Shown here piece by piece: positions 3,766-17,744 of a stretch of DNA of 64,000 bases. Position numbers and translations under genes: made by a program. The DNA lies in the NCBI RefSeq assembly GCF_003008515.1, contig NZ_CP027668.1, positions 682,001 through 746,000 of the forward strand, given 5' to 3'. Each line of letters opens with the position of its first letter. The first letter of the stretch is position 1. Origin of the DNA: Phreatobacter cathodiphilus. GTDB lineage: Bacteria > Pseudomonadota > Alphaproteobacteria > Rhizobiales > Phreatobacteraceae. The notes under the pieces were generated by a model. It was given only the letters and a program-made list of their open reading frames with translations. It was not told the DNA's origin and did no database searches.

Positions 3766-5457
3766 TCAGAAGGTCTTGCCGGCGAGGATCGACACCTGTT
3801 CGGCGACGGGGCCGAGGGCGAGGACCGGCAGGAAGGTGAGGGCGCCGACGATCAGGATGGTGACCACCAGCAGCACGACGAAGACGGGGCCGTGGGTCGG
3901 GAAGGTGCCGGCCGACGCGGGGGCGGTCTTCTTCGCCGCCAGCGAGCCGGCGATGGCGAGGATCGGCACGATGTAGCCGAAGCGCCCGAGGAGCATGGCG
4001 AGGCCGAGCAGCGTGTTGTGGAACGGCACGTTGGCGTTGAAGCCGGCGAAGGCCGAGCCATTGTTCCCCGTGGCCGAGGAATAGGCGTAGAGCAGCTCGG
4101 ACAGGCCGTGGGGGCCGGCGTCCTGGATCGATCCCTGCGCCGCGCCGGTGACGATGGCGAGGGCCGCCAGCGCCAGCGCGCCGACGGGCATGACCAGCAG
4201 CGTCAGGGCGGCGAGCTTCACCTCCCGCGCCTCGATCTTCTTGCCGAGATATTCCGGCGTGCGGCCGACCATCAGCCCGGCGAGGAAGACGGTGAGGATG
4301 ACGAAGAGCAGCATGCCGGTGAGGCCGACGCCGACACCGCCGAATACGATCTCGCCGAGCTGCATCTGCAGCATGGCGACGAGCCCGCCCAGCGGCGTCA
4401 GGCTGTCGTGCATGGCGTTGACCGAGCCGTTGGACGCCGCCGTCGTGGCGACTGCCCAGAGGGCCGAGCCGATGACGCCGAAGCGCACCTCCTTGCCTTC
4501 CATGTTGCCGGCGCCCGGCGCGATGAGGCCCGCCTGCAGCGGATTGCCGGTCTTCTCGGCCGCGTAGAGCGCCGCGAAGGCGAGGACGAGCATCACCCCC
4601 ATGGCGGCGAAGAGCGCCAGGCCCTGGCGATGGTCGCCGACCATGCGGCCATAGGCGAAGCAGAAGGCGACCGGCAGGGCGAGGATGGCGAGAAGCGACA
4701 GCAGGTTGGAGATGGCCGTCGGGTTCTCGAAGGGATGCGAGGAGTTGACGTTGAAGAAGCCGCCGCCGTTGGTGCCGAGCTGTTTGATCGCGACCTGGCT
4801 GGCGACGGGCCCGAGCGCGAGCGTCTGCTGGCCGCCCTCCAGCGTCGTCGCCTGCACCGAGGCGGCGAGAGTCTGCGGCATGCCGGTGGCGACGAAGGCG
4901 AGGGCGAGCAGGACGGCAAGCGGCAGCAGCACGTAGAGCACCGCCCGGACCAAATCGCTCCAGAAATTGCCGATGGTGCGCACCTGACGTCCGGCGAAGC
5001 CGCGCGCCACGGCAGCAGCCACCGCCATGCCCGAGGCGGCGGAGACGAAGTTCTGCGTCGTCAGGCCGGCCATCTGGCTGAGGTGGGAGAGCGTCGTCTC
5101 GCCGCCGTAGGACTGCCAGTTGGTGTTGGTGACGAATGAGATCGCCGTGTTGAAGGCGAGATGCGCCGGCACGCCGTCGAAGCCCTGCGGGTTCAGCGGC
5201 AGAAGGTGCTGGAAGCGCAGCACCAGGAACAGGACGAGGAAGCCGCACGCGTTGAAGGCGATGAGGGAGAGGGCGTAGCGGGTCCAGTGCTGGCCGTCTC
5301 CAGGGCGCACGCCGGCGGGGGCGAGGAGCGCCCGCTCCAGCGGGGCGAGGAAGGTGGCATCGCCCGCGAAGACGCGGGCCACATAGAGGCCGAGAGGGAC
5401 GGCGACGGCGACGAGGATAGCCGCATAGAGCGCGGCCTGGAGGAGGTCCGGTGTCAT
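3766..5457 (-). CDS. kdpA: K+-transporting ATPase, channel-like subunit KdpA
   Basis: KdpA is the K+-translocating subunit, a member of the superfamily of K+ transporters with four pore loops. The 563-residue product is strongly hydrophobic and contains filter-like segments, for example [20 protein letters not shown] in the middle and [15 protein letters not shown] near the C terminus. Length is normal. The start follows the kdpF stop by 11 bases with no obvious Shine-Dalgarno, suggesting translational coupling. Confidence 0.97.
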
Positions 5458-5468
5458 GGGATGGGCTT

Positions 5469-5558
5469 TCAGAAGCGCTCGGGGCGCAGCAGGGCGACCA
5501 GGAGGTAGCCGAAGGCGAAGAGCGCGAAGGCGAGGCCGAGGCCGATGTCGAAGGTCAT
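5469..5558 (-). CDS. kdpF: KdpF, 29-residue membrane peptide
   Basis: KdpF is a single-helix peptide that stabilises the KdpABC complex. The ATG at 5558 opens a 29-codon frame beginning [20 protein letters not shown] and ending in RPERF. It is one hydrophobic helix with a short charged tail, the usual KdpF layout, and lies directly before kdpA. A GAGGCGG purine run sits a few bases upstream of the start. The gene is too short for most gene callers. Confidence 0.88.
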
Positions 5559-5565
5559 CGCCGCC

Positions 5566-5652
5566 TCACACGCGCTCGGCGCCGGTGACCGCGGCGGCGA
5601 TCAGGGCGAAGCCGGCGAGGCCGCCGGCAAGGAAGAGGAAGTCGACCCACAT
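5566..5652 (-). CDS. 28-residue hydrophobic peptide at the head of the kdp operon
   Basis: The ATG at 5652 opens a 28-codon frame, MWVDFLFLAGGLAGFALIAA followed by AVTGAERV. It is one predicted membrane helix with a short polar tail. A GGAG box is spaced 7 bases from the start, and the stop is only 7 bases before the kdpF ATG. Position, spacing and hydrophobicity suggest a real translated peptide cotranscribed with kdp. It may be a second KdpF-like accessory peptide or a leader peptide. It is not recognisably KdpF itself, so function is unknown. Confidence 0.55.
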   Translation of the reverse strand: MWVDFLFLAGGLAGFALIAAAVTGAERV

Positions 5653-5696
5653 GGAAGAGCTCCGGTTGATGTGATCCGGAGGCTAGGATCGCCGGG

Positions 5697-5745
5697 CGTA
5701 AAGGGACGAGGCGGAAGCGGCCTTCCGGCCGTAACGGCAGCGTAA
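5697..5745. promoter_or_regulatory. Helically phased CGTAA repeats upstream of kdp (candidate KdpE site)
   Basis: CGTAA occurs at 5697, 5730 and 5741. Spacings are 33 and 11 bases, both multiples of 11. Read on the kdp strand this is TTACG-N6-TTACG with a third copy one to three turns downstream. OmpR-family regulators such as KdpE bind direct repeats with this kind of phasing. The cluster lies 45-93 bases upstream of the first kdp micro-ORF. Binding by KdpE is inferred, not shown. Confidence 0.35.
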
Positions 5746-5879
5746 AACCGGCGAATCCGAAGGCGTCGGAGGCCGGGGAACGACCGGCATCCGGGCCGGC
5801 GACGACGGCGGCCCGCCGGATCGGCCCGCCCGCAACGCGTTTATCCGCAGGCCCTGACATCACACCTGCCGACGGTCCC

Positions 5880-5975
5880 TCAGGGCTCTAACGCGGCCTG
5901 AGCCAGAGAGGCCACGGTGGGGCCCTTTTTGCGTTTGCGGTCGATGATGGTACCCGTACCCCACGGGGCTCCCAT
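5880..5975 (-). pseudogene. Possible remnant of an integrase N terminus upstream of dusA
   Basis: From an ATG at 5975 the minus strand reads MGAPWGTGTIIDRKRKKG followed by PTVASLAQAALEP and a stop. The piece GTIIDRKRKKG resembles the conserved N terminus of many tyrosine-recombinase integrases ('MGTI..RKRKDG...Y.AQI'). Only about 22 residues match, then the frame ends; nothing integrase-like follows to 5653. It lies about 100 bases upstream of dusA and points away from it. dusA is a known integration target for a dedicated integrase family. The match is short, so chance is possible. Confidence 0.35.
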
Positions 5976-6078
5976 GGGAGCCCGAGAGCTGCGACATCCG
6001 CTGAGGGAACGGCGTCGACAACGCCGGATGTCGGAGCTTCGATGCTCGACGATGGCGATGTGTATAGCGGAAACCCGC

Positions 6079-7110
6079 ATGAACGCTGACTTGTCCGGAC
6101 GCGCCGGCCCCTGGCGGTTCTCCGTGGCGCCGATGATGGACTGGACGGACCGGCACTGCCGGTTCTTCCACCGCATCCTCACGCGCCATGCCCTGCTCTA
6201 CACGGAGATGGTGACCGCCAATGCGGTGATCCACGGCGATCGCGACCGCCTGCTCGGCTTCGACCCGGGCGAACAGCCCGTGGCCCTGCAGCTCGGCGGC
6301 GCCGATGCCGGGGCGCTGGCCGAGGCGGCGCGGATCGGCGAAGCCTTCGGCTACGACGAGATCAACCTGAATTGCGGCTGCCCGTCGGACCGCGTCCAGG
6401 GCGGCCAGTTCGGCGCCTGCCTGATGGCGGTGCCGGATCAGGTGGCGCGGGCGGTCGCGGCGATGAAGGCGGCGGTGGCGGTGCCGGTCACGGTGAAGTG
6501 CCGCATCGGCATCGACGATCAGGACCCGGAGACGGGCCTCGACGCCTTCGCCGACGCCGTCGTCGCCGCCGGCGCGGACGCGCTGATCGTCCACGCGCGC
6601 AAGGCCTGGCTGCAGGGGCTGTCGCCGCGCGAGAATCGCGAGGTTCCGCCGCTCGACTACGACCGGGTGTTTCGCCTGAAGGCGCGCCTGCGCCACGTGC
6701 CCATCGCCATCAACGGCGGCATCGGCGGCATCGCCGAGGCTGAGAGCCTGCTCGCGCCCCGCGACGGTGTTCAACTCGACGGCGTCATGCTCGGCCGTGC
6801 CGCCTACCAGTCGCCGGCCTTGCTGCGCGATGTCGACCGCGCCTTCTTCGGGGTTGAGCCGCCCGTCGCCGGTCTCGCCGAAGCCATCGAGGCCTTCATT
6901 CCCTATGTCGAAGCGCGGCTCGCCGAGGGCGTGCGGCTCTCCGCCATGACGCGCCATATCCTCGGCCTGTTCCAGGCCGTGCCCGGCGCCCGCCAGTTCC
7001 GCCGCCACCTGTCGGTCGAGGCTGTGAAGCCGGGTGCCGACGCGCGGGTGCTGCGCGAGGCCCTCGCCCTCGTCGCCGACCGGCCCGCCGGGCGCGACAT
7101 GGCCGCCTGA
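6079..7110 (+). CDS. dusA: tRNA-dihydrouridine(20/20a) synthase DusA
   Basis: DusA is a flavoenzyme that reduces uridine to dihydrouridine in the D-loop of tRNA. The 343-residue product begins shortly before FSVAPMMDWTDRHCRFFHR, the FMN-binding start of the TIM barrel. NCGCPSDRVQGGQFGA follows at about 99-114, with catalytic Cys near 101. Later come KCRIGIDD, IVHARKA and the C-terminal helical tRNA-binding domain. The ATG at 6079 gives the usual DusA length; the open frame extends further upstream to 5917 but without similarity. It is divergent from the kdp operon. Confidence 0.96.
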   Translation: MNADLSGRAGPWRFSVAPMMDWTDRHCRFFHRILTRHALLYTEMVTANAVIHGDRDRLLGFDPGEQPVALQLGGADAGALAEAARIGEAFGYDEINLNCGCPSDRVQGGQFGACLMAVPDQVARAVAAMKAAVAVPVTVKCRIGIDDQDPETGLDAFADAVVAAGADALIVHARKAWLQGLSPRENREVPPLDYDRVFRLKARLRHVPIAINGGIGGIAEAESLLAPRDGVQLDGVMLGRAAYQSPALLRDVDRAFFGVEPPVAGLAEAIEAFIPYVEARLAEGVRLSAMTRHILGLFQAVPGARQFRRHLSVEAVKPGADARVLREALALVADRPAGRDMAA

Positions 7111-7126
7111 GGTGGCATGAACGCGA

Positions 7127-7151
7127 AAGGGCGGCGCGTGGCGCCGCCCTT
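7127..7151. terminator. Hairpin between convergent dusA and the 83-aa gene
   Basis: An 11-bp perfect stem, AAGGGCGGCGC (7127-7137) paired with GCGCCGCCCTT (7141-7151) around a GTG loop. It lies 16 bases after the dusA stop and 20 bases from the end of the convergent gene. It can act as an intrinsic terminator for both, with only short T/A runs. Confidence 0.75.
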
Positions 7152-7171
7152 CGTCGGGTCGTTTCGGCCGG

Positions 7172-7423
7172 TCAGCGGGTGCGGACGGATTCGCAATAGT
7201 GACCGCGGAGCACCTCGAAGCGGCACATCACGACGGAGTCGCGCTGCGCGTCGACCCGCGACTGGGGAATGCCCGGGGTCTGGATGGCCATGATCGGCGC
7301 GTCGTAGCCGATCGAGCCGCCGCCGTCGCCGGCGCTGCCGCCGCCACCGGCGGTCTGGGCCATGGCGCCACCGGCGGCGCAGACGAGAAGGGCGGCGACG
7401 GCGAAGGTCTTGAAACGGGTCAT
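7172..7423 (-). CDS. Small secreted protein of unknown function (83 aa)
   Basis: The start at 7423 has an AGGAG box at proper spacing and yields a signal peptide, MTRFKTFAVAALLVCAAGGA, with likely cleavage after AMA. The mature part begins with a Gly-rich stretch (QTAGGGGSAGDGGGS). It ends with DSVVMCRFEVLRGHYCESVR, where two cysteines could form a disulfide. The open frame extends further upstream but without coding character. No family recognised. It is probably a periplasmic or exported protein, transcribed alone. Confidence 0.7.
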   Translation of the reverse strand: MTRFKTFAVAALLVCAAGGAMAQTAGGGGSAGDGGGSIGYDAPIMAIQTPGIPQSRVDAQRDSVVMCRFEVLRGHYCESVRTR

Positions 7424-7668
7424 CTGACAGTCTCCTGGTCGGTTGGAGCGGTGCGCCCGGTGGCCCTCTCGGCCGGCCGGTGTCGTCCGCCTGTGACGCC
7501 CTTGTGCACCCCGCCCTTTGCTGCCGCTCGCCGCCGGGCCGGCGCCCCGTTTCCCCTGTATCCGCCATGTTGCAGGCGCTGTTCCACGTCGGCACCGGCG
7601 TGCAGGCCGGCTGCGCGCGCCTTGCACTTGCCGCGCCCGGCCATGAGGGCTAAGTCGCGCGCTTCCCT

Positions 7669-8550
7669 GTGACGCGGATGTCCCCCATGTTCTTCGGCGT
7701 TCCCTACGACCAGCTCGCCATTCTCGCCGTCGGGCTCCTCGGGGCCGGGGCCATCACGGGCATCCTCGCCGGCGTCTTCGGTGTCGGTGGCGGCGCCGTC
7801 ATCGTGCCGGTGCTCTACGAGCTCTTCGGCGTGGTGGGCGTCCCGGTCGAGCTGCGCATGGCGCTCGCCGTCGGCACCTCGCTCGCCATCATCATCCCGA
7901 CCTCCATCCGCTCCTTCCAGGCCCACAAGGCCAAAGGCGCGGTCGACATGGACATCCTGCGCGCCTGGGCGGTCCCGGTCGTGCTCGGCGTCGTCGCCGG
8001 CTCGTTCATGGCGCGCTATGCGCCGCCGGCCGTGTTCAAGGCGGTCTTCGTCTTCGTCGCCGGCCTCTCCGCCTGGCGGCTGCTCACCGGCAAGGAGCTG
8101 AATTTCGGCACCGGGATGCCCGGCCGCGCCGGCATGATCGCCTCCGGCGGCGTCATCGGCGTGCTGTCCAGCCTGATGGGCATCGGCGGCGGCCAGCTCG
8201 GCAACCTCGTGATGATGGCCTATGGCCGCTCCATCCATAACGCCGTGGCGACCTCCTCGGGTCTCGGCGTCCTCATCTCCATCCCCGGCGCGCTCGGCTA
8301 CATCTATGCCGGCTGGCCCAAGGCGGCGGAGTTCCCCGGGGTCGCCGCCATCCAGTTCCCCTTCGCCCTCGGCTATGTCTCGCTGATCGGCTTCCTGCTC
8401 TTCATCCCGACCTCCATGTGGACGGCCCCGCTCGGCGCGCGCCTCGCCCACGCCCTGCCCAAGCGCAAGCTCGAGCTCTCCTTCGGCATCTTCCTGCTCA
8501 TCGTCTGCCTGCGCTTCACCTGGGACCTGGTGACCCACGGCCTCGGCTGA
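7669..8550 (+). CDS. TSUP-family (TauE/SafE) membrane exporter
   Basis: This is a probable anion/organosulfur permease of the sulfite exporter TauE/SafE family (TSUP). The 293-residue protein has about eight hydrophobic segments. It carries the duplicated glycine-rich signature GVFGVGGGAVIVPVL near residue 40 and SLMGIGGGQLGN in the second half, as expected for two repeated halves. The GTG at 7669 is taken as start; in-frame ATGs at 7678 and 7687 are equally possible because no clear Shine-Dalgarno is seen. Substrate cannot be deduced. It converges on the beta-lactamase gene with only 10 bases between. Confidence 0.92.
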   Translation: MTRMSPMFFGVPYDQLAILAVGLLGAGAITGILAGVFGVGGGAVIVPVLYELFGVVGVPVELRMALAVGTSLAIIIPTSIRSFQAHKAKGAVDMDILRAWAVPVVLGVVAGSFMARYAPPAVFKAVFVFVAGLSAWRLLTGKELNFGTGMPGRAGMIASGGVIGVLSSLMGIGGGQLGNLVMMAYGRSIHNAVATSSGLGVLISIPGALGYIYAGWPKAAEFPGVAAIQFPFALGYVSLIGFLLFIPTSMWTAPLGARLAHALPKRKLELSFGIFLLIVCLRFTWDLVTHGLG

Positions 8551-8566
8551 GGCCTCCGGCTCAGCC
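8545..8566. terminator. Hairpin spanning both stop codons of convergent genes
   Basis: GGCTGAG (8545-8551) pairs with CTCAGCC (8560-8566) across an 8-base loop. The left arm contains the TGA of the TSUP gene and the right arm contains the TGA of the beta-lactamase gene. The compact layout suggests a shared bidirectional terminator, though the stem is only 7 bp and no T-run follows. Confidence 0.45.
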
Positions 8567-9364
8567 GTAGATTCCGAGCCGCTTCAACGCGGCGCGGCCG
8601 ATCTCCAGCCGCTGCGGCGCCATGGCCATCTGCGGCATGTCCATGTTCAGCGTGAAGGCGTGGATGCGGCTGCCGCGCTCCACCCAGCCTGTCCACCAGC
8701 CGACCGACGTCTCCCCGCGCTTCACGAACCAGCCGGTCTTGCCGTAGAGCGTCGCGCCGTCGGCGGTCTCCAGCCGCACGATGTCGTGGACCAGGGTCTG
8801 CGCCCGCTGCGAGGCCGGCAGGCCCTTCTGCGCCAGGCGCAGGTTGAACCGCGCCTCCTCCGTCGCGCTGATGCGCAAGGGGCCGTCGAGCCAGAAGCGG
8901 TCCACCACCGTGCCGGGGTCGCGGTTGCCGTAGTCGAGCTTCGCGAGCCAGTCGCGATAGCGCGCCAGCCCGACCCGCCGCGCCACCTCCTGGAAGATCG
9001 GCACGTTGGAGATCGGCATGGCGTCCCGGAGCGACATGTCCCGTGCCCAGGCCGGGTTCGAGGTGCGCCCGCCGCCATAGGGCAGCACGGTGTCGGCGTC
9101 GGCCACCGCACCGGTCTCGAAGGCGATGAGGCTGTTCGGTATCTTGAAGGTGGAGGCCGGAACGAGCCGCCGTCCGGCGCGGCGCGCGTCGGAGATCGTC
9201 GCCTCGCCCGTTGCGCCGTCCACCAGCGCGAAGGTGCCACTCGCTCCGTGGTCGCGGAAGATGCCGGCGAGGTCCGGCCGGTCGGGGCTGGCGGCGAGCG
9301 CCGGTGCGCTCGGCAGGAGGGCAGCGAGGGCGAGGGCGTCGCGGCGCGTGAGGGCAGGGGGCAT
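8561..9364 (-). CDS. Class D (OXA-type) beta-lactamase with Tat-like signal
   Basis: This is a serine beta-lactamase that would hydrolyse beta-lactams in the periplasm. All class D motifs are present in order: STFK at 71-74 (nucleophile Ser, carboxylated Lys), SNV at 119-121, YGN at 145-147, and KTG at 209-211 followed by W. WLDGPLRISATEE, typical of OXA enzymes, is also present. The 267-residue length fits. The N terminus has a twin arginine before a hydrophobic stretch (TRRDALALAALLPSAPALA), so Tat export is likely. It is a chromosomal stand-alone gene with no mobile element nearby. Activity and spectrum are not predictable here. Confidence 0.93.
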   Translation of the reverse strand: MPPALTRRDALALAALLPSAPALAASPDRPDLAGIFRDHGASGTFALVDGATGEATISDARRAGRRLVPASTFKIPNSLIAFETGAVADADTVLPYGGGRTSNPAWARDMSLRDAMPISNVPIFQEVARRVGLARYRDWLAKLDYGNRDPGTVVDRFWLDGPLRISATEEARFNLRLAQKGLPASQRAQTLVHDIVRLETADGATLYGKTGWFVKRGETSVGWWTGWVERGSRIHAFTLNMDMPQMAMAPQRLEIGRAALKRLGIYG

Positions 9365-9470
9365 GGTGCTCTTCCGTGGGGCGGGCCGGCAGGGCTAGCG
9401 CCCGATCAAGGCGCGTTCTGGGCAGGTGCCGGGCTCTTGCGCGCAGAACGCGTCCGTACCCGACGCCGCT

Positions 9471-10997
9471 CTAGCGCAGGATGATGCGCCCCTCGATGCG
9501 AGGCGCGACGGTTCCGAGCGCCCGCAGATGCTCCATCAGGTCGAGCGCCACGAGCTTGCCCTGCACGTCCTTGTCCGGTGCCCTGAGGCCGAGGGTCGTG
9601 TAGCCGTCGCCGCCGCGCAGCATGAAGTCGTTGGTGGCGACGCTATAGACCCGGTCGTCGTCGAGGGGCTGGCCGCCCACTTGCACCGAGACGACGCGGC
9701 TGCCCGCCGGCCGGCGCGGATCGACCTCCACCGTCAGGTTGGAGACGTGGGGGAAGCGCCCGGCGCGCTGCTCGACCTGGCTCACCCCATTCTCCAGCGC
9801 CTGGCGGATGTCGGCGCCCGAGACCTTGGCGACGACGGTGCGGTTGCCGAAGGGCAGTTCGCTGAGGGCGTCGCGCCGGGTGAAACGGTGGCCGGCGGGA
9901 TAGATCCGGTTGCCGCGGATGGCCCCGGCATTGGTCAGGCCGATATCGGTGCCCGCCGCCCGGCGCATGGCGTCGGCGACGAGATTGCCGATCGCCTGCT
10001 CGCCGGAGCGCACGGATGCCGTGCGGGTGTCGAGTTCGCCCGTGACCGTGGCGACCTCGACGTCCAGCTCCTCCGAGAGCACCTTTTCGTATTGCCGCAC
10101 CCGCTGGAGCGTTTCCGGATCGGGCGTCACGTGGCGGCTGTCGTTGACCCGGAAGGCCGGCGTGAAGGCCATGCGGGTCACCCCGTCCACGGTGACGCGG
10201 TTCAGCGTCAGGTCGATGGCGGTGACGTAATAGCCCTCCTCGGAGCTCTCCACCATGACGGTGCGGCCGTCATAGGTGATGGCGAGGTCGTGGTCGTGGC
10301 CGGTCAGCAGCACGTCGACGAGGCGCGAGCGGACGATCTCGTCGTCCTCCCGCCGGTCGGTATGGGCGCAGCAGACGACGAGGTCGGCGCCCTCGCGCCG
10401 CAGCCGCGCCGTCTCCCGCCGCACCGTCTCCATGGTGGGCAGGAAGCGGATGTCGCCGGTGGAGGAGACCTCCGGCGTATTGGGCAGGGCAACCCCGAAG
10501 ACGCCGAGCTTCACCACGCCGAGATCGACGATGCGCCCGTCCTCGTGGCCGGGCAGCAGCGAACCGTCCGCGGCGCGCATGTTGGAGGCGTACCAGGGAA
10601 AGCGCGACTGGACGCGCCGCTGGGCATAGGCCTCCGGACCGAAGTCGAACTCGTGGTTGCCGGGGACGAAGACGTCCGGTGGCGCCATGTTGCAGAGCTC
10701 GACCGTGTGGGCGCCCTGGTCGAAGCCCGACATCAGTGAGGGTGAGAACATGTCGCCGGCATGGACGTAGAGCAGCGGCACGCCGCGCGCCCGCTCCGCC
10801 CGCACGATGGCGTTGAGCCGGGCGAAGCCGCCGCGGCCGTTCTCCTCGCCCATCTTGTAGATGTCGTTGACCAGCAGCAGCGTCACCATGGCCGCACCGC
10901 CGCCGGGCGCCTGGGCGCCGGCCTGCGCGCCGCCGAGGGCGGCGATGCCGGCTCCCAGTCCGGCTGTCAGGGTGTCGCGGCGGGAAATGCGGTTCAT
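9471..10997 (-). CDS. 5'-nucleotidase/UshA-family metallophosphoesterase, Tat-exported
   Basis: This is a probable periplasmic nucleotidase or phosphodiesterase of the UshA family. The ATG at 10997 gives 508 residues with a Tat signal (MNRISRRDTLTAGLGAGIAA). The metallophosphatase domain has NDIY (44-47), GDMFSP (81-86), GNHEFD (113-118) and LLTGHDHD. The first metal motif is D-x-Y instead of the usual D-x-H, seen in one subgroup of the family. The C-terminal 5'-nucleotidase domain carries TNAGAIRG and NDFMLRGGDGY. It follows the aspartic protease gene on the same strand with a 59-base gap. Confidence 0.92.
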   Translation of the reverse strand: MNRISRRDTLTAGLGAGIAALGGAQAGAQAPGGGAAMVTLLLVNDIYKMGEENGRGGFARLNAIVRAERARGVPLLYVHAGDMFSPSLMSGFDQGAHTVELCNMAPPDVFVPGNHEFDFGPEAYAQRRVQSRFPWYASNMRAADGSLLPGHEDGRIVDLGVVKLGVFGVALPNTPEVSSTGDIRFLPTMETVRRETARLRREGADLVVCCAHTDRREDDEIVRSRLVDVLLTGHDHDLAITYDGRTVMVESSEEGYYVTAIDLTLNRVTVDGVTRMAFTPAFRVNDSRHVTPDPETLQRVRQYEKVLSEELDVEVATVTGELDTRTASVRSGEQAIGNLVADAMRRAAGTDIGLTNAGAIRGNRIYPAGHRFTRRDALSELPFGNRTVVAKVSGADIRQALENGVSQVEQRAGRFPHVSNLTVEVDPRRPAGSRVVSVQVGGQPLDDDRVYSVATNDFMLRGGDGYTTLGLRAPDKDVQGKLVALDLMEHLRALGTVAPRIEGRIILR

Positions 10998-11056
10998 CGG
11001 GACCTCGTCGTCGGGGCGGGACAATGCCGCCGCGGGCGGTGCCGTGGCAAGGCCTG

Positions 11057-11773
11057 TCAGTTGCGCCCGCGCAGCACCATCCGTCCGCCGCGCACCTCGT
11101 AGCTCTCCAGTCGGTCGAGGAAGGTGTGGCCGAGGAGGCTGGTGGTCAGTGCCCCCGGGCGCGCCACCAGCGCCCTGACGTTCCGCTCGACGATCGGGCC
11201 GACGGCGACGGTCTGCACCATCGTGAAGGCGGTGAGGGCCGGTCCGTTGGCGGTCTGTACCGGGACGGTGAAGGACAGTTCCTCGACCTTGATGCCGGCC
11301 CGCCGGGCGTCGGCCTCGGTGAGCACCAGGGCCGAGGCGCCGGTGTCCACCAGCATGGGTGTCGCCCGCGCGCCGTTGAGGGCGACGCGCACCACGTAGG
11401 TGCCGCCGCCGCCGCGCGGCACCGATACCTCGCGCGTGCCGGTGACGCCGTCGCTCGCCATCCCCGGCACCAGGTTCGCCATCACCCGCCGGCCCACCAG
11501 CTCGAACTCGTAGCGGTAGGTGTAGATGACGCCGAGAAAGGCGAAGATGGCGAGCCAGGCGACCGCCGCCTGCAGCGCCTCTCCCGCCCTTCCGCGGAAC
11601 ATGCCGAGCACGCTGGCACCGCAGAGCACCGCGAGCATGGAGAGGCCGACGAGCGAGCCCCAGTCGCCGGCATCCAGCGTGCCGGCGGCGACCCCGCTGG
11701 AGCGGATCGCGACCAGCAGAACCAGCAGGAGGATGGCGACGAGCAGGATCCACAGCGTGGTGCGTGACGTCAT
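11057..11773 (-). CDS. Membrane-anchored retropepsin-like aspartic protease (TIGR02281 type)
   Basis: The 238-residue protein has three N-terminal hydrophobic segments (about 7-24, 40-56, 68-86). They are followed by a periplasmic retropepsin-like domain with MLVDTGASALVLTEADA (catalytic Asp at about 143) and LLGHTFLDRLESYEV near the C terminus. This matches the single-lobe clan AA aspartic proteases common in alphaproteobacteria, which act as dimers. Physiological substrate unknown. The ATG at 11773 overlaps the stop of the DUF1289 gene (ATGA), so the two are translationally coupled. Confidence 0.9.
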   Translation of the reverse strand: MTSRTTLWILLVAILLLVLLVAIRSSGVAAGTLDAGDWGSLVGLSMLAVLCGASVLGMFRGRAGEALQAAVAWLAIFAFLGVIYTYRYEFELVGRRVMANLVPGMASDGVTGTREVSVPRGGGGTYVVRVALNGARATPMLVDTGASALVLTEADARRAGIKVEELSFTVPVQTANGPALTAFTMVQTVAVGPIVERNVRALVARPGALTTSLLGHTFLDRLESYEVRGGRMVLRGRN

Positions 11774-11970
11774 GCGCTGGCGCCTCCGCCGGCGCGGCGG
11801 CGGGGAAGGTCGGCCAGGATGGCGCGGCGCTCCTCGCCGGTCATGCCGAGCCAGGCGGCGATCTCGGCCAGCGTGCGGGCGCAGCCCTGGCAGAGGCCGG
11901 ACTGTGGGTCGATGCGGCAGAGCCGGATGCAGGGGCTCTCCAGGGCCGGCGGCGCTGAGATCGCGTTCAT
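11770..11970 (-). CDS. DUF1289 family small cysteine-rich protein (66 aa)
   Basis: The compact 66-residue protein has the DUF1289 pattern SPCIRLCRIDPQSGLCQGC, with cysteines at about 14, 18, 27 and 30, followed by T..EIA.W..M...ERR. The four cysteines suggest metal or Fe-S binding, but no function is established. The start at 11970 overlaps the cobS stop (ATGA) and its own stop overlaps the protease start, so three genes are coupled. DUF1289 proteins are widespread in proteobacteria. Confidence 0.92.
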   Translation of the reverse strand: MNAISAPPALESPCIRLCRIDPQSGLCQGCARTLAEIAAWLGMTGEERRAILADLPRRRAGGGASA

Positions 11971-12767
11971 GGGGTGGCAGCCGCCAGCAGGGTCAGAAGC
12001 ATGGCGATCTCGATCACCTGTTGCGTCGCGCCGGTGATGTCGCCGGTCTGCCCTCCCACATGGGAATCGGCGAAGCGGATGGCCAGAAGCAGCACGAGGC
12101 CTGCGACGCAAAGTCCGCAAAGCGTGCCGAAAAGGCCGCCGGCTGGGACGGCGAGGACCGCAATCAGGGCTGTGAGCGCCAGGGCGCGATGCCAGTCCGC
12201 CTCGCGCGGCGTGCCCGTGGCATAGGCGACGCCCTCGACCCGCGCCGGCGGCAGGCGCACCTGCAGGCCGAGCGCCACCGTGCGCGACACCGCACCTGCG
12301 GCCGCCAGCGCCAGCGCCGTGCGGCCTGTCCCGACGGCGGCGACGAGCCCGGCGAGGCCCGCGACCCGGAGGCCGAGGCCGACGATCAGCGCCGTGGCGC
12401 CGAAAGTGCCGATGCGGCTGTCCTTCATGATGTCGAGGCGGCGTTCCTTGCTCATGCCGCCGAGACTGTCGGCGGTATCGGCCAGCCCGTCCTCGTGGAA
12501 GGCGCCGGTCATCACCGCCGCGGCCCCGACGCAGAGGAGGGCGGCGATCACCGGCTGCCAGAACAGGCCGGCGGCGATCAGCACCGCCCCGGCGAGCCCG
12601 CCGAGCACGAGCCCGACCAGCGGCACCACCCGGATCAGCCGGGTAAAGTCCGGCAGACCGTGCGGATCGGCCTCTCCGGGCAGGGTCGGCAGCGGCAGGC
12701 GTGAGAAGAAACGAAGCGCAACGATCGTGTCACGCCAGAGGGCTGGATTGTCCATGGCGAATGGCAT
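11967..12767 (-). CDS. cobS: Adenosylcobinamide-GDP ribazoletransferase (cobalamin synthase)
   Basis: This membrane enzyme joins adenosylcobinamide-GDP with alpha-ribazole, a late step of cobalamin assembly. The 266-residue hydrophobic protein has RFFSRLPLP near the N terminus, GAFHEDGLADTADSLGG at about 88-104 and KDSRIGTFG, all hallmark CobS/CobV motifs. The start at 12767 is used; an in-frame ATG at 12755 is possible. It is divergent from cobT, its partner in the same pathway, across a 98-base gap. The upstream gap is too short for a cobalamin riboswitch and none was seen. Confidence 0.96.
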   Translation of the reverse strand: MPFAMDNPALWRDTIVALRFFSRLPLPTLPGEADPHGLPDFTRLIRVVPLVGLVLGGLAGAVLIAAGLFWQPVIAALLCVGAAAVMTGAFHEDGLADTADSLGGMSKERRLDIMKDSRIGTFGATALIVGLGLRVAGLAGLVAAVGTGRTALALAAAGAVSRTVALGLQVRLPPARVEGVAYATGTPREADWHRALALTALIAVLAVPAGGLFGTLCGLCVAGLVLLLAIRFADSHVGGQTGDITGATQQVIEIAMLLTLLAAATP

Positions 12768-12865
12768 AGCCAGAGCCGCGACCGTTCGCCAGTCCGGCTT
12801 GTGCCGCGTTGCCCTGTCCTGCTACCGCTCGCCTCCCGCGACGCCCCCGAGTCTGAAAGCGCCTC

Positions 12866-13894
12866 ATGGTTCTGCCGCCTCCCAATCCGACCGGTCTGCC
12901 CTTCGAAGACATTCGCGATCTCCTCACCCGCATGCCGGGGCCGGACGAGTCGGCGGTCGCCGAGGTGCGCGCCCGCGACGCCGAACTGACGAAACCCGCG
13001 GGTGCGCTCGGCCGGCTCGAGGACATCGTCGAATGGGTCGCCGCCTGGAGCGGCAACGGCAAGCCGCGGGTCGACCGCCCGCTGGTGGCGATCTTCGCCA
13101 CCGCTCACGGCGTGACCGCACAGGGCGTCTCCGCCTTCCCCGATGCCGTGAACCGCCAGATGCTGGAGAATTTCGCCGCCGGAGGCGCGGCGGTGAACCA
13201 GCTTTGCATCGCCAACGACATCGGCCTCAAGGTCTTCGACCTCGCCATCGAGGTGCCGACGCCCGACATCACCACCGCCGACGCCCTCGACGAGCCCGGC
13301 TGCGCCGCGACCATCGCTTTCGGCATGGAGGCCATCGTCGGCGCCGACCTGCTCTGTCTCGGCGAGATGGGCATCGGCAACACCACCGTCGCCGCCGCCG
13401 TCTATCACGGCCTCTATGGCGGCGAGGCCCGTGACTGGGTGGGCCCCGGAACCGGCGTCGACGCCGAGGGGCTGAAGCGCAAGGCCGATGTGGTCGCCCG
13501 CGCCGTCGCCCGTGCTGGCGGGTCCGGCCTCGATCCGCTCGAAGTGCTGCGCCGGGTCGGCGGCCGCGAGATCGCGGCCGTCGCCGGCGCCATCCTGGCG
13601 GCGCGACTGCAGCGCATCCCCGTCCTTCTCGACGGCTATGTCGTCACCGCCGCGGCGGCCGTGCTCCATGCGCTGGACCCGGCGAGTCTCGACCATTGCC
13701 TCGCCGCTCACCGCTCCGCCGAGCCGGCCCATGGCCGTGTGCTCGAGAGGATCGGCAAGCGCCCGCTGCTCGACCTCGGCATGCGGCTGGGCGAGGGCTC
13801 CGGCGCCGCGCTCGCCTGCGGCATCGTCCGCAACGCCCTCGCTGTCCACCAGGGCATGGCGACCTTCGAGCAGGCGGCCGTCAGCCGCGGCTGA
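12866..13894 (+). CDS. cobT: Nicotinate-nucleotide--dimethylbenzimidazole phosphoribosyltransferase
   Basis: CobT transfers phosphoribose from nicotinate mononucleotide to dimethylbenzimidazole, supplying alpha-ribazole phosphate for the lower ligand of cobalamin. The 342-residue product shows GALGRLEDIVEWVA, FATAHGVTAQGVSAFP, GEMGIGNTTVAAA and, near the end, DLGMRLGEGSGAALA containing the catalytic Glu. Length is normal. It is divergent from cobS, and its 3' end carries a perfect palindrome facing the two-component genes. Confidence 0.97.
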   Translation: MVLPPPNPTGLPFEDIRDLLTRMPGPDESAVAEVRARDAELTKPAGALGRLEDIVEWVAAWSGNGKPRVDRPLVAIFATAHGVTAQGVSAFPDAVNRQMLENFAAGGAAVNQLCIANDIGLKVFDLAIEVPTPDITTADALDEPGCAATIAFGMEAIVGADLLCLGEMGIGNTTVAAAVYHGLYGGEARDWVGPGTGVDAEGLKRKADVVARAVARAGGSGLDPLEVLRRVGGREIAAVAGAILAARLQRIPVLLDGYVVTAAAAVLHALDPASLDHCLAAHRSAEPAHGRVLERIGKRPLLDLGMRLGEGSGAALACGIVRNALAVHQGMATFEQAAVSRG

Positions 13895-13899
13895 CGGCC
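13876..13899. terminator. 24-bp perfect palindrome at the cobT stop codon
   Basis: GGCCGTCAGCCG (13876-13887) is immediately followed by its exact reverse complement CGGCTGACGGCC (13888-13899). The cobT TGA (13892-13894) lies inside the right arm, and the convergent response-regulator gene ends 8 bases further on. As RNA it would form about a 10-bp stem with a tetraloop, suitable as a bidirectional terminator. A protein-binding palindrome cannot be excluded. Confidence 0.6.
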
Positions 13900-13906
13900 C
13901 GGCGCG

Positions 13907-14509
13907 TTACTGCTCCGTCAGGACGATCCGCACCAGATTGGCGGCATTGCGCGCGCCGATCTTCTCCATGATCCGCGCCCGATGCACCTCGATGGTGCGT
14001 GGGCTGATGCCGAGGGTGCGGCCAGCCTCCTTGTTCGAGGCGCCGCCGGCGATCTGCTCCAGCACCTGCCGTTCTCGCGGAGTGAGCAGCTCCATGCCGG
14101 GGAAATGCGAGGCGAGCTGGCCGGACCTGCGGCTCGGGCGCTGACCCTCGGCGAGCACCTCGCGGACGCGGCCGACGAGGCGCTCCGCGTCGAAGGGCTT
14201 TTCGAAGAAGTCCACCGCGCCGCTGCGGATGGCATCGACCGCCATCGGAATGTTCGCCTGGCCCGACATGGCGAAGATCGGCGCCGCGCAGGCGTCGGCC
14301 TTGAGGCGCTTCAGCACGTCGAGGCCCGAGGGTCCGGGGATGTTGACGTCGAGGATGACGCAGGCCGGCACATGACCCTTCACGGCCGACACCACCGAGG
14401 TGCCGTCGGCGAAGCTGGTCACGTCGAAGCCCTGCATGGTGAGGATGGAACTGAGCGCGTCGCGGACCGCGGGGTCGTCGTCGACCACGAAGATGTCGTC
14501 ATGGGACAT
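13907..14509 (-). CDS. FixJ/NarL-type response regulator
   Basis: The 200-residue protein has a receiver domain (acidic pocket D10-D12, phospho-acceptor D54 in VILDVNIPG, conserved FFEKPFD). A LuxR/FixJ helix-turn-helix follows from about 137, LTPRERQVLEQIAGGASNK then GISPRTIEVHRARIMEKI. It resembles FixJ-type regulators. The histidine kinase gene ends 4 bases upstream of its start, so the pair forms an operon. Targets are unknown; the palindrome at 15636-15655 upstream of the pair is a candidate site. Confidence 0.93.
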   Translation of the reverse strand: MSHDDIFVVDDDPAVRDALSSILTMQGFDVTSFADGTSVVSAVKGHVPACVILDVNIPGPSGLDVLKRLKADACAAPIFAMSGQANIPMAVDAIRSGAVDFFEKPFDAERLVGRVREVLAEGQRPSRRSGQLASHFPGMELLTPRERQVLEQIAGGASNKEAGRTLGISPRTIEVHRARIMEKIGARNAANLVRIVLTEQ

Positions 14510-14512
14510 GGA

Positions 14513-15562
14513 TCAGGAGCTCCGCTGCACGACGTGATGCTCGGCCGGGCCTGCGAGGGGCAGGACGAGCGACACGGTCGCCCCCCGGCCGTCGCCGCCG
14601 GGCTCGATGCTGATGGACCCGCCATGGCGCTCGGCGATGGTCCGGGAGATGGCGAGGCCGAGGCCCAGGCCTCCGGCCTTGGCCGACCGGAAGGGCGCGA
14701 ACAGGCGAGCCATGTCGGCTTCCGCGATGCCGGGTCCGCTGTCGCGGACCGACAGGCGCACCGTGCCGCCTTCGCAGTCGGTCGTGATCCACAGCCGGGC
14801 GGTGCTCTGCTCCGCGACGGCGTCGAGGCCGTTGCGGACGAGATTGACCACGACCTGCTGCAACTGCACCGGGTCGGCGATCACCGCGAGGCCTCCGGGG
14901 GCCCGGCTGCGTCGGATATCGGGGGGCGGGGAGCGGCCGACGAGGGCGAGGTCGAGGGCCTCGTCGACCGTCGCGTCGAAGTCCACGGCCGTCGTTTCCG
15001 GCGGCCTGTTCTCGGCGAAGCGGCGCAGGGCGCGGATGATCTTGCCGGCCCGTTCCGCCTCGTGCCTGGCCTTGCCGACGAAGGCGGCGGCGCGATCGTC
15101 TCCGCCGATCAACCCCTCGGCCGCCCTCAGATAGAGGGCCGCGGCGGTGAGCGGCTGGCTGAGTTCGTGGGCGAGGGCGGGGCCCATCGCGGCGACCAGC
15201 GCGAGCCGCTCCGCATGGGCCTCGTCCGCCGCGGGGCGGGGCTGAAGTACGGCGACGAACTGCCGTCCGCTCGCCGCTTCGACGGTCGCGACGTCCACCC
15301 GCAGCGCGACCGGTGTCCCGTCCCTGTGGCGACCGACGATCTCCCGTGCGCCGCCCCAGGTTTTCAGCGCGCCAGCATCCACGGATTGGCTGGCGAAGAG
15401 CGTCGCGAAGGGCAGTCCCAGGGTCTCGGCGGCGGTCCAGCCGAGCAGCGGCGCGCAGGCGCGGCCGAAGGCGGTGATCAGCCCCTGGCCGTCGAGCACG
15501 ACGAGAGCGTCGCCCGCCATGTCGATGACCTTCGACAGGAGGGCGTCGTTCGCATGCGGCAA
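14513..15562 (-). CDS. FixL-like PAS histidine kinase (no heme histidine evident)
   Basis: This is a soluble sensor kinase of 349 residues: a PAS domain (about 10-108), a dimerisation/phosphorylation helix with ALAHELSQPLTAA (His at about 132), and an ATPase domain with N-box VVNLVRNGLDA (Asn near 244), RDSGPGIA and GLGLGLAIS. The HELSQPL box and EIVGRHRDGTPVALRVDV before it are FixL-like. The PAS helix that carries the heme-ligating His in FixL reads LFASQSVDAGALKTW here and has no His, so classical oxygen sensing is unlikely. No membrane segment is visible. The signal is unknown. Confidence 0.9.
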   Translation of the reverse strand: MPHANDALLSKVIDMAGDALVVLDGQGLITAFGRACAPLLGWTAAETLGLPFATLFASQSVDAGALKTWGGAREIVGRHRDGTPVALRVDVATVEAASGRQFVAVLQPRPAADEAHAERLALVAAMGPALAHELSQPLTAAALYLRAAEGLIGGDDRAAAFVGKARHEAERAGKIIRALRRFAENRPPETTAVDFDATVDEALDLALVGRSPPPDIRRSRAPGGLAVIADPVQLQQVVVNLVRNGLDAVAEQSTARLWITTDCEGGTVRLSVRDSGPGIAEADMARLFAPFRSAKAGGLGLGLAISRTIAERHGGSISIEPGGDGRGATVSLVLPLAGPAEHHVVQRSS

Positions 15563-15635
15563 GAGTGGGACGGCGCGTTCGATGCGATCCTCCGCCGGCG
15601 GGGCGCGGCGGAACAGCCTGCGACATCCCGCCTCA

Positions 15636-15655
15636 TCCGTAAATCATGCTACGGA
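15636..15655. promoter_or_regulatory. 20-bp palindrome TCCGTA-N8-TACGGA upstream of the two-component operon
   Basis: TCCGTA (15636-15641) and TACGGA (15650-15655) form a perfect inverted repeat with an 8-base A/T-leaning spacer. It lies 74 bases upstream of the kinase start and 48 bases past the end of the aminotransferase gene. Its length fits a dimeric helix-turn-helix regulator, possibly the FixJ-like protein encoded downstream (autoregulation). Binding is inferred only. Confidence 0.4.
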
Positions 15656-15703
15656 CAAATGCGGAGCGCAACGGCCTTCACATCACCAAACGTCAACCGG
15701 CTC

Positions 15704-16885
15704 CTAAAGCTGCGGAATGGCCGCCTTCAGGCGGTCGGCGGCGAGGGCGATCTGCTCGGGCGAGCGCAGGTAGCAGAGCCTGAGATGGCCCTCTCCGCCG
15801 GGGCCGAAGGCGCTGCCGGGGGCAAGGCCGACCTTGGCGATGTCGACGAGCTTCATCGCCGCGGCGTTGGAATCGGTCACGCCGTCGATGCCGAAGAACA
15901 GGTAGAAGGCGCCGTCGGGCCGCGAGAAACGGCAGCGTCCCGTCGCCTCGATCGCCTCCGAAACGATGTCCCGCGCCTTGCGCGCCTTCGTCACCTGGTG
16001 GGCGAGGAAGCTCTCGCCGCGCTCGAGCGCGACGACGCAGGCCCGCTGGATGAACACCGGCGAGCCGGACGTCGAATACTGGATGAGGTTCTCGATGACG
16101 TCGCCCAGCGCCGGGTCGGCCTCGACCCAGCCGGTGCGCCAGCCGGTCATCGCCCAGTTCTTCGAGAAGGTGTTGACCCAGACGATGCGGTCGCCCTCCT
16201 CGCGCACGTCGTGGAAGGAGGGCGCGCGGCGCGGCGACCCTTCGGTCCAGACGAAGCGGGTGTAGATCTCGTCGGCGATGATCCAGAGGCCGTGGCGGCG
16301 GGCGATGGCGAGGATGGCGGCGAGCTCTTCCTTCGTGGCGGTCCAGCCGGTGGGGTTGGACGGCGTGTTGATGAACATCGCCTTGGTCCGCGGCGTGACC
16401 GCCGCCTCCAGCTTTTCGAGGTCGATCTGCCAGCCGCGATTGCCGTGGTCGAGTTCGACGAAGACCGGTGTCGCACCGCGCAGACCGGCGGCGGCCGGGG
16501 CGTTCGGCCAGGTCGGGGAGGGGATGATGACCTCGTCGCCGACGCCGGCGACCAGTGTCATCGCGATCTGGATCGCCTGCATGCCCGAGCCGCAGACGAA
16601 GAAGCGCTCCGCCGACAGCTCGCGGCCGTAGAGGTCAGAAGCGTAGGTGGCGATCGCCTGCCGCAGTTCGGGAATGCCGCGCTGCCAGGTGTAGGTCGTC
16701 TCGCCGGCGGCCAGCGAGCGCGTCGCCGCCTCATAGATGAAGGACGGCGTCGGCATGTCGCCCTCGCCCACCCAGAGCTGGATCACCTCACCGGCGGCGC
16801 GGGCATATTTCGACAGCTCGACGATGCCGCTGGCGGGGGCGGTGGAGGCTTCCGGACGCAGCGAGGCGAGGAGGGCAGAGGTCAT
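15704..16885 (-). CDS. PLP-dependent class I/II aminotransferase
   Basis: This is a fold-type I aminotransferase of the aspartate aminotransferase family, 393 residues from the ATG at 16885. An AGGA sits before the start; the frame continues upstream to 16966 without similarity. Recognisable pieces are SPTWPNAPAAAGLRG, INTPSNPTGWTATKEEL (about 172-188), ADEIYTRFVW and the PLP-lysine segment NTFSKNWAMTGWRTGW (Lys at about 242). Substrate cannot be fixed from sequence. It is a single gene, divergent from the lipoprotein at 17097. Confidence 0.92.
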   Translation of the reverse strand: MTSALLASLRPEASTAPASGIVELSKYARAAGEVIQLWVGEGDMPTPSFIYEAATRSLAAGETTYTWQRGIPELRQAIATYASDLYGRELSAERFFVCGSGMQAIQIAMTLVAGVGDEVIIPSPTWPNAPAAAGLRGATPVFVELDHGNRGWQIDLEKLEAAVTPRTKAMFINTPSNPTGWTATKEELAAILAIARRHGLWIIADEIYTRFVWTEGSPRRAPSFHDVREEGDRIVWVNTFSKNWAMTGWRTGWVEADPALGDVIENLIQYSTSGSPVFIQRACVVALERGESFLAHQVTKARKARDIVSEAIEATGRCRFSRPDGAFYLFFGIDGVTDSNAAAMKLVDIAKVGLAPGSAFGPGGEGHLRLCYLRSPEQIALAADRLKAAIPQL

Positions 16886-17096
16886 GCGGACGGTCCTGGA
16901 TGGGAAGGCCGGAGCCGGGAGGGCGCCAGCATAACGGTCGCGAGGGCTCCTTCTCATGAAATTCACGCGCCTTGTCCATCATCGGCAGCGATGGAAGCGG
17001 CGGACTGCTGCCGGTGGACGACAGCAGGATGGCCTTTGTTCCGCCCGAAGCCTGTTGCTATAAGCGCCGATCGCGACGGTAAATCGAGGTAGCGGC

Positions 17097-17744
17097 GTGC
17101 GGATGTGGAAAGTGACGGCTGTTCTGGCGGCGGGCCTGGCGCTCGGCGCATGCGGCAGCACCGGCGGCAACCTGTTCGGTGGCCAGCAGCAGCAGACGAC
17201 GCAGGCCGCGGCCCAGCCCGCTCCCGGCGTCGGCTCGCCCGTCCACAACGCGCTGTTCGGTCAGCCGGTGCCGGAGGGCCAGCAGGCCCTGCACGCCAAC
17301 CTCTGCCCGCGTGTCGAGATTCGCGACGGCTCGGCCGTCTGGCGCCAGGGCGGCGAGGGCCCGACGGAGCTGCGCTACCAGGGAACCATCACCGATCTCG
17401 CCCGCGAGTGCCGTATCGACGGGCAGACCATGACCATCCGCGTCGGCGTCGAGGGCCGGGTGCTGGTCGGCCCGAAGGGCGACGGCGGCCGGGTGAACCT
17501 GCCGATCCGCATCGCCGTGACCAAGGGCCTGTCGACGCCGGTCTGGACGCGCCTCTACCAGGTGCCGATCGACATTCCCGCCGGCTCGCCCAACGTCGCC
17601 TTCACCCAGGTGGAGGATCAGGTCTCCTTCCCGCTGCCCGAACCCGGCGACCTCGCGACCTACATCGTCTTCGTCGGTTTCGACAACCAGGCGACCCAGC
17701 CCGAGCGCCCGCGCCGCGGCCGTGCCCGCACCGCCCAGCGCTGA
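17097..17744 (+). CDS. Putative outer-membrane/periplasmic lipoprotein of unknown function
   Basis: The 215-residue product has a lipoprotein signal ending LALGACGS, with the lipobox Cys at about residue 19. A Gln-rich linker, a folded domain with two further cysteines (ANLCPRVEI, ARECRIDGQ) and an Arg-rich tail (RPRRGRARTAQR) follow. The GTG at 17097 is favoured because GAGG lies about 8 bases upstream; an ATG at 17103 is the alternative. The family is not recognised, though such proteins are common in Hyphomicrobiales. It is separated from the gcv riboswitch by a hairpin. Confidence 0.8.
   Translation: MRMWKVTAVLAAGLALGACGSTGGNLFGGQQQQTTQAAAQPAPGVGSPVHNALFGQPVPEGQQALHANLCPRVEIRDGSAVWRQGGEGPTELRYQGTITDLARECRIDGQTMTIRVGVEGRVLVGPKGDGGRVNLPIRIAVTKGLSTPVWTRLYQVPIDIPAGSPNVAFTQVEDQVSFPLPEPGDLATYIVFVGFDNQATQPERPRRGRARTAQR

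Follow-up and report, generated by a model that had tools for sequence, protein, structure and literature searches.

dusA-associated integrases (DAIs) and the genomic islands specific to dusA have been described by Farrugia et al. (2015; PMC4482086). According to that article, in living DAI elements the whole stretch from the integrase gene to the attachment core is element DNA, and the new 5' end of dusA comes from the island, which brings in putative promoters and replaces a beta strand. The nearest relative of the DAIs is Rci, the survey of the family includes members at other genes, and Burkholderia phage AH2 is named among the carriers (PMC4482086). The annotated integrase of AH2 starts MGTITKRKRGNGTFGYTAQI, also given as MGTITKRKRGNGTFGYTAQIRLKRDGK. 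When this integrase is used as a query at E<=1e-10, matches occur in 73 of the 397 order genomes and in none of the 12 from the genus. At 26 of the 30 loci fetched, dusA lies divergently beside the integrase (the exceptions are L105, L106, L110 and L120).

The locus analyzed here lies in a stretch of 64,000 nucleotides from Phreatobacter cathodiphilus, referred to in its entirety as the window. The dusA gene, encoding tRNA-dihydrouridine synthase A (343 aa), occupies positions 6079-7110 on the plus strand. Its attachment core region, CGATGATGGACTGGACGGA, is located at 6131-6149 (+), and dusA copies diverge at the same point at islands in two other genomes (G009 and G004). Upstream of dusA, positions 5898-5957 on the minus strand are the N-terminus of a DAI, decayed and with its start codon lost.

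The integrase stub upstream of dusA

Read as an open frame, the minus strand from 5957 gives TGTIIDRKRKKGPTVASLAQAALEP and then a stop at 5882-5880, so the peptide originally reported beside dusA is present as described. The likeness to an integrase N-terminus claimed for it holds for about 20 codons (codons 1-20, TGTIIDRKRKKGPTVASLAQ, 5898-5957) and fails for the remainder. DAI likeness ends after LAQ, tblastn covers DAI residues 2-22 only, and the integrase breaks off at about 5898, where it is followed by a non-integrase tail consisting of AALEP and a TGA stop (5880-5897, minus strand). The former start codon at 5955-5957 (-), which aligns with the ATG or GTG starts of DAIs, is now ACG. The closest relative (G001) has ATG at the same place, and ACG is also present at one other decayed DAI copy adjacent to dusA, in genome G101. 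With its start codon gone and a stop after five foreign codons, the stub is non-functional.

Two models were used to evaluate the stub: an N-terminal HMM composed of 22 DAI N-termini, that of the AH2 integrase among them, and a 36-nt DNA matrix derived from 18 DAI gene starts. The window sequence was left out of the building of both. In a six-frame search of the window, the stub scores 21.6 bits with the HMM (E=1.2e-5), the next stretch reaching 5.4 bits, and the best score in 310,241 bp of control loci is 7.5 bits. The stub is also the sole match to this HMM at E<=0.1 in its whole genome of 4.49 Mb (E=6.8e-4). The DNA matrix peaks in the window exactly at 5957 (-) with 37.6 bits, versus 17.2 for the runner-up, while 30 block shuffles of the window give a maximum of 17.3 and true DAIs have leave-one-out scores of 28.7-48.5. 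The nearest DAI start is that of locus L097 (N-terminus MGTIIERPRKKGPPAYLAQ), which is identical to the stub at 28 of 36 nucleotides. Similarity to DAIs was found by both models at levels far over the controls.

Searches with the 26-aa peptide alone gave nothing convincing against phages (best E about 10) or plasmids (best E 8), 0 families in Pfam and chance-level similarity only within the genus (E 0.7 and 1.65). The stub is visible only with a family profile, not by single-sequence search. When viral contigs were scanned with the AH2 integrase, the query recovered its own phage and otherwise only similarities confined to the C-terminal tail, and the scan was dropped as evidence. The shortness of the peptide and its absence from single-sequence results are what a chance similarity in ordinary intergenic DNA would produce, and the match was initially reported with the caveat that it may be chance. 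Such an origin is nevertheless highly improbable given the profile E-values in the window and in the genome, a DNA-level score within the range of true DAIs, a strand and distance exactly as expected and an eroded copy shared with the closest relative.

The position of the stub is likewise that of a DAI. It points away from dusA and lies immediately upstream of it, and the distance from its codon 1 to codon 14 of dusA is 161 bp, compared with 149-195 bp at 17 intact dusA-adjacent DAIs. This exact position and spacing at dusA make it very unlikely that the stub was left by some other Rci-like tyrosine recombinase without a dedication to dusA, even though Rci is the nearest relative of the DAIs, the survey in PMC4482086 includes members at genes other than dusA and the 20 codons left are too few to prove the subfamily. 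Neither a tyrosine recombinase catalytic domain (RHRH and Y) nor an attL is left to confirm the DAI family directly. The genome has 7 PF00589 matches, all of them outside the window, and the stub is a relic rather than a working member of the family.

The spacer and the closest relative

The spacer from the stub to the attachment core, including the first dusA codons (5958-6130), would be element-derived by its position and belongs to the same length class as at intact DAIs (compare PMC4482086). The first-pass annotation had put the remnant at about 75 bases. The scar is probably longer, continuing across the spacer as far as the attachment core at about 6131, since in living DAI elements all of this DNA belongs to the element (PMC4482086). 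By the same analogy the start of dusA may derive from element DNA. Counting against this, its first codons resemble those in relatives with no detectable stub, and a promoter scan found no sigma-70-like promoter in the spacer. An inverted repeat at 5987-6038 (AGCTGCGACATCCG and CGGATGTCGGAGCT, with 24 nt between the arms) has a weak likeness to the int-proximal repeats of DAI elements that is suggestive only, and it was not counted as an integrase arm site since its spacing is unlike that of DAI repeats. A perfect 18-bp palindrome, GGGCTCCCATGGGAGCCC, is also located between the stub and dusA, at 5966-5983.

The closest relative carries a colinear and more eroded stub, which starts with ATG and reads MGITGKSKRKKPGAVV. 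DNA identity between the two genomes rises from 63% in the stub (47/75 columns) to 86% in the immediate vicinity of the dusA start and 92% within dusA beyond the core. None of 2000 shuffles reaches the local alignment score of the relic. By the DNA matrix the relic scores 17.3, higher than any other position in its 9.3-kb contig, but this only equals the top shuffle of the window and is marginal when taken alone. Because this relative holds an eroded version of the stub, the scar is judged from the sequence comparison to be older than the split of the two genomes. The N-terminal profile finds no match at E<=0.1 in the eleven other members of the genus, the relic of the closest relative being too eroded for it, and no relative among the 12 genus genomes has an intact DAI element at dusA.

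The same comparison bears on whether the stub could instead encode a short working peptide or a leader of dusA whose likeness to an integrase start is coincidental. Both genomes do have a short in-frame ORF here, as this explanation would have it, but the protein likeness between the copies amounts to little beyond KRKK, the stub retains only 63% DNA identity where dusA beyond the core retains 92%, and the alignment contains gaps whose lengths are not multiples of three. A functional peptide or leader is thus extremely improbable, and the stub is better read as a decayed DAI.

The kdp junction and probable loss of the element

The kdp genes lie to the left of the stub on the minus strand. The upstream end of this kdp block (5640-5750, minus strand) is conserved in relatives where kdp is not beside dusA, and the 8-kb block as a whole (about -2305 to 5750) is common to five relatives at 81-86% DNA identity, in each case away from dusA. 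The unassigned DNA that separates the stub from the kdp block (5751-5879) has no similarity to the kdp or dusA flanks of relatives and is 47% identical to the closest relative in a global alignment. In that relative, other DNA, not kdp, lies to the left of the relic. Beyond the relic, nothing recognizable in the left dusA flank is shared by this genome and its relatives. A search of this genome with the dusA-upstream DNA of the closest relative gave no match, in a search with no positive control. Carriage of kdp as island cargo was considered and is unsupported: kdpA occurs in 11 of the 12 genus genomes, the block is away from dusA in five relatives and no second attachment copy was found.

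The kdp block (about 679696-687750 in genome coordinates) has near-identical end points on both sides in the five relatives, which have no flank in common with this genome, and from these sequences it looks as if it moves as a unit. In genome G002 (locus L077, contig G002:C7), a 237-aa open frame with a PF00589 match is located at about 7325-7760, roughly 0.2-0.7 kb past the end of the kdp block. Within the window, an ORF at 8561-9364 on the minus strand has an STFK motif and presumably resembles a class D beta-lactamase or a related sensor domain.

No other piece of a DAI was found in the genome. The AH2 integrase query finds no DAI match elsewhere in the genome, and there is no second copy of the dusA 5' end in it, so the paired attachment sites of dusA islands are absent. 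Copies of the dusA 5' end were observed in other genomes. They bracket a 12.9-kb stretch upstream of dusA at L035 (G009:C297, about 4544-17431) and a 16.6-kb stretch at L036 (G004:C54, 548-17122), and two copies at 2161 and 8669 of L037 (G004:C25) are perhaps in tandem in that genome. PF00589 has no match on the G009 and G004 island contigs. Eight proteins tested on the G009 contig are mostly transporters, regulators and signaling proteins, one having no Pfam match. Judged by sequence, the G009 and G004 stretches look like dusA islands with no tyrosine recombinase of their own.

For how these events followed one another, for the deletion and for the survival of the stub, we infer the following. 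A DAI-type element would have inserted into the dusA 5' end before this genome and its closest relative diverged, placing its integrase gene just upstream of dusA and pointing away from it, as in living DAI elements. A deletion or rearrangement after about codon 20 of the integrase would then have taken the rest of the element and brought other DNA alongside, here the kdp block, while the dusA-side end stayed in place, from the first 20 integrase codons across the spacer to the attachment core. Loss within the integrase gene is favored over clean excision because site-specific excision would take the integrase too. The remaining end may have survived because it would also bear the start of dusA, whose loss would harm the gene. 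This history, in which a DAI element at dusA was later removed by deletion or rearrangement and left a stub, is very probably correct. The original proposal of a past integrative element that was lost is therefore upheld by motif, strand, spacing, neighboring gene and the relic in the closest relative, with the refinement that the loss would have been by deletion or rearrangement. The stub is real, an unremarkable fossil from an element family already described, as the first-pass annotation had suggested.

Stubs beside dusA across the order

The N-terminal profile was also run on the same 397 genomes of the order at a cut-off of E<=0.1. It returned 69 matches in 62 genomes, 36 of which, at 35 loci, are divergent beside dusA. 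Adjacency to dusA was scored from the fetched loci, and 1.3 kb from each integrase start was examined for stubs. At least 355 integrase residues are covered at 18 of the 35 dusA-adjacent loci, one of which (in G274) is frameshifted, and 231, 149 and 106 residues at three others. Eleven are stubs of at most 70 codons, that of this window being the shortest at 21 residues. The N-terminus has no tblastn support at two further loci (G135 and G082), and a contig end truncates one more (G292). Six of the 11 stubs come from profile matches weaker than E=1e-6, yet they lie at dusA, a placement that is not expected by chance.

The profile search is biased toward retained N-termini. As a partial check of this bias, four weak matches without the extreme N-terminus (L179, L181, L182 and L183) were inspected, and the 3-6 kb fetched for them contain no dusA. 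A further 80 dusA loci were collected independently with DusA alone, including one (L297) that has almost no upstream DNA and for which the score is meaningless. The DNA matrix scores at least 10 at the expected place and on the integrase strand at 8 of the 80, and at 1 on the opposite strand. Near-full-length integrases account for four of the 8 (Bradyrhizobium jicamae SZCCT0349, Bradyrhizobium sp. dw_78, a Pseudorhodoplanes MAG and a Cohaesibacter MAG) and stubs for the other four (Methylocystis sp. Sn-Cys, Methylobacterium sp. E-045, Aquamicrobium defluvii DSM 11603 and the contig of the closest relative).

This recurrence of stubs is more interesting than the single case. In the sample from the order, stubs of at most 70 codons (11 loci) are not much rarer beside dusA than near-full-length integrases (18 loci). 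Terms for truncation, decay, scars or pseudogenes are absent from PMC4482086, a narrow full-text literature search found no description of dusA integrase stubs and their frequency beside dusA seems to be undescribed. Tentatively, and with somewhat more doubt than confidence, decayed DAI stubs may form a widespread class of fossils that is selectively retained, because a dusA 5' end supplied by the element cannot be lost without damaging dusA, which would then permanently begin in DNA of a former mobile element. If so, the integrase start and spacer persist as testimony to earlier insertions. Traces of an integration at dusA can outlast the element itself, which allows past visits of elements to be counted from short stubs, and the present locus offers a specific example of a host gene whose start may once have belonged to a mobile element.

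Compared with the DAIs and dusA islands described in PMC4482086, the stub shares the N-terminal motif, the minus-strand placement, the spacing and the attachment core in the dusA 5' end. It differs in consisting of about 20 decayed codons with no catalytic domain, cargo or attL, and its flank is kdp instead of an island. The stubs of Methylocystis sp. Sn-Cys (L322) and Methylobacterium sp. E-045 (L269) likewise keep the N-terminus beside dusA with the rest gone, although they retain about 48-60 integrase residues, whereas the window retains about 20.
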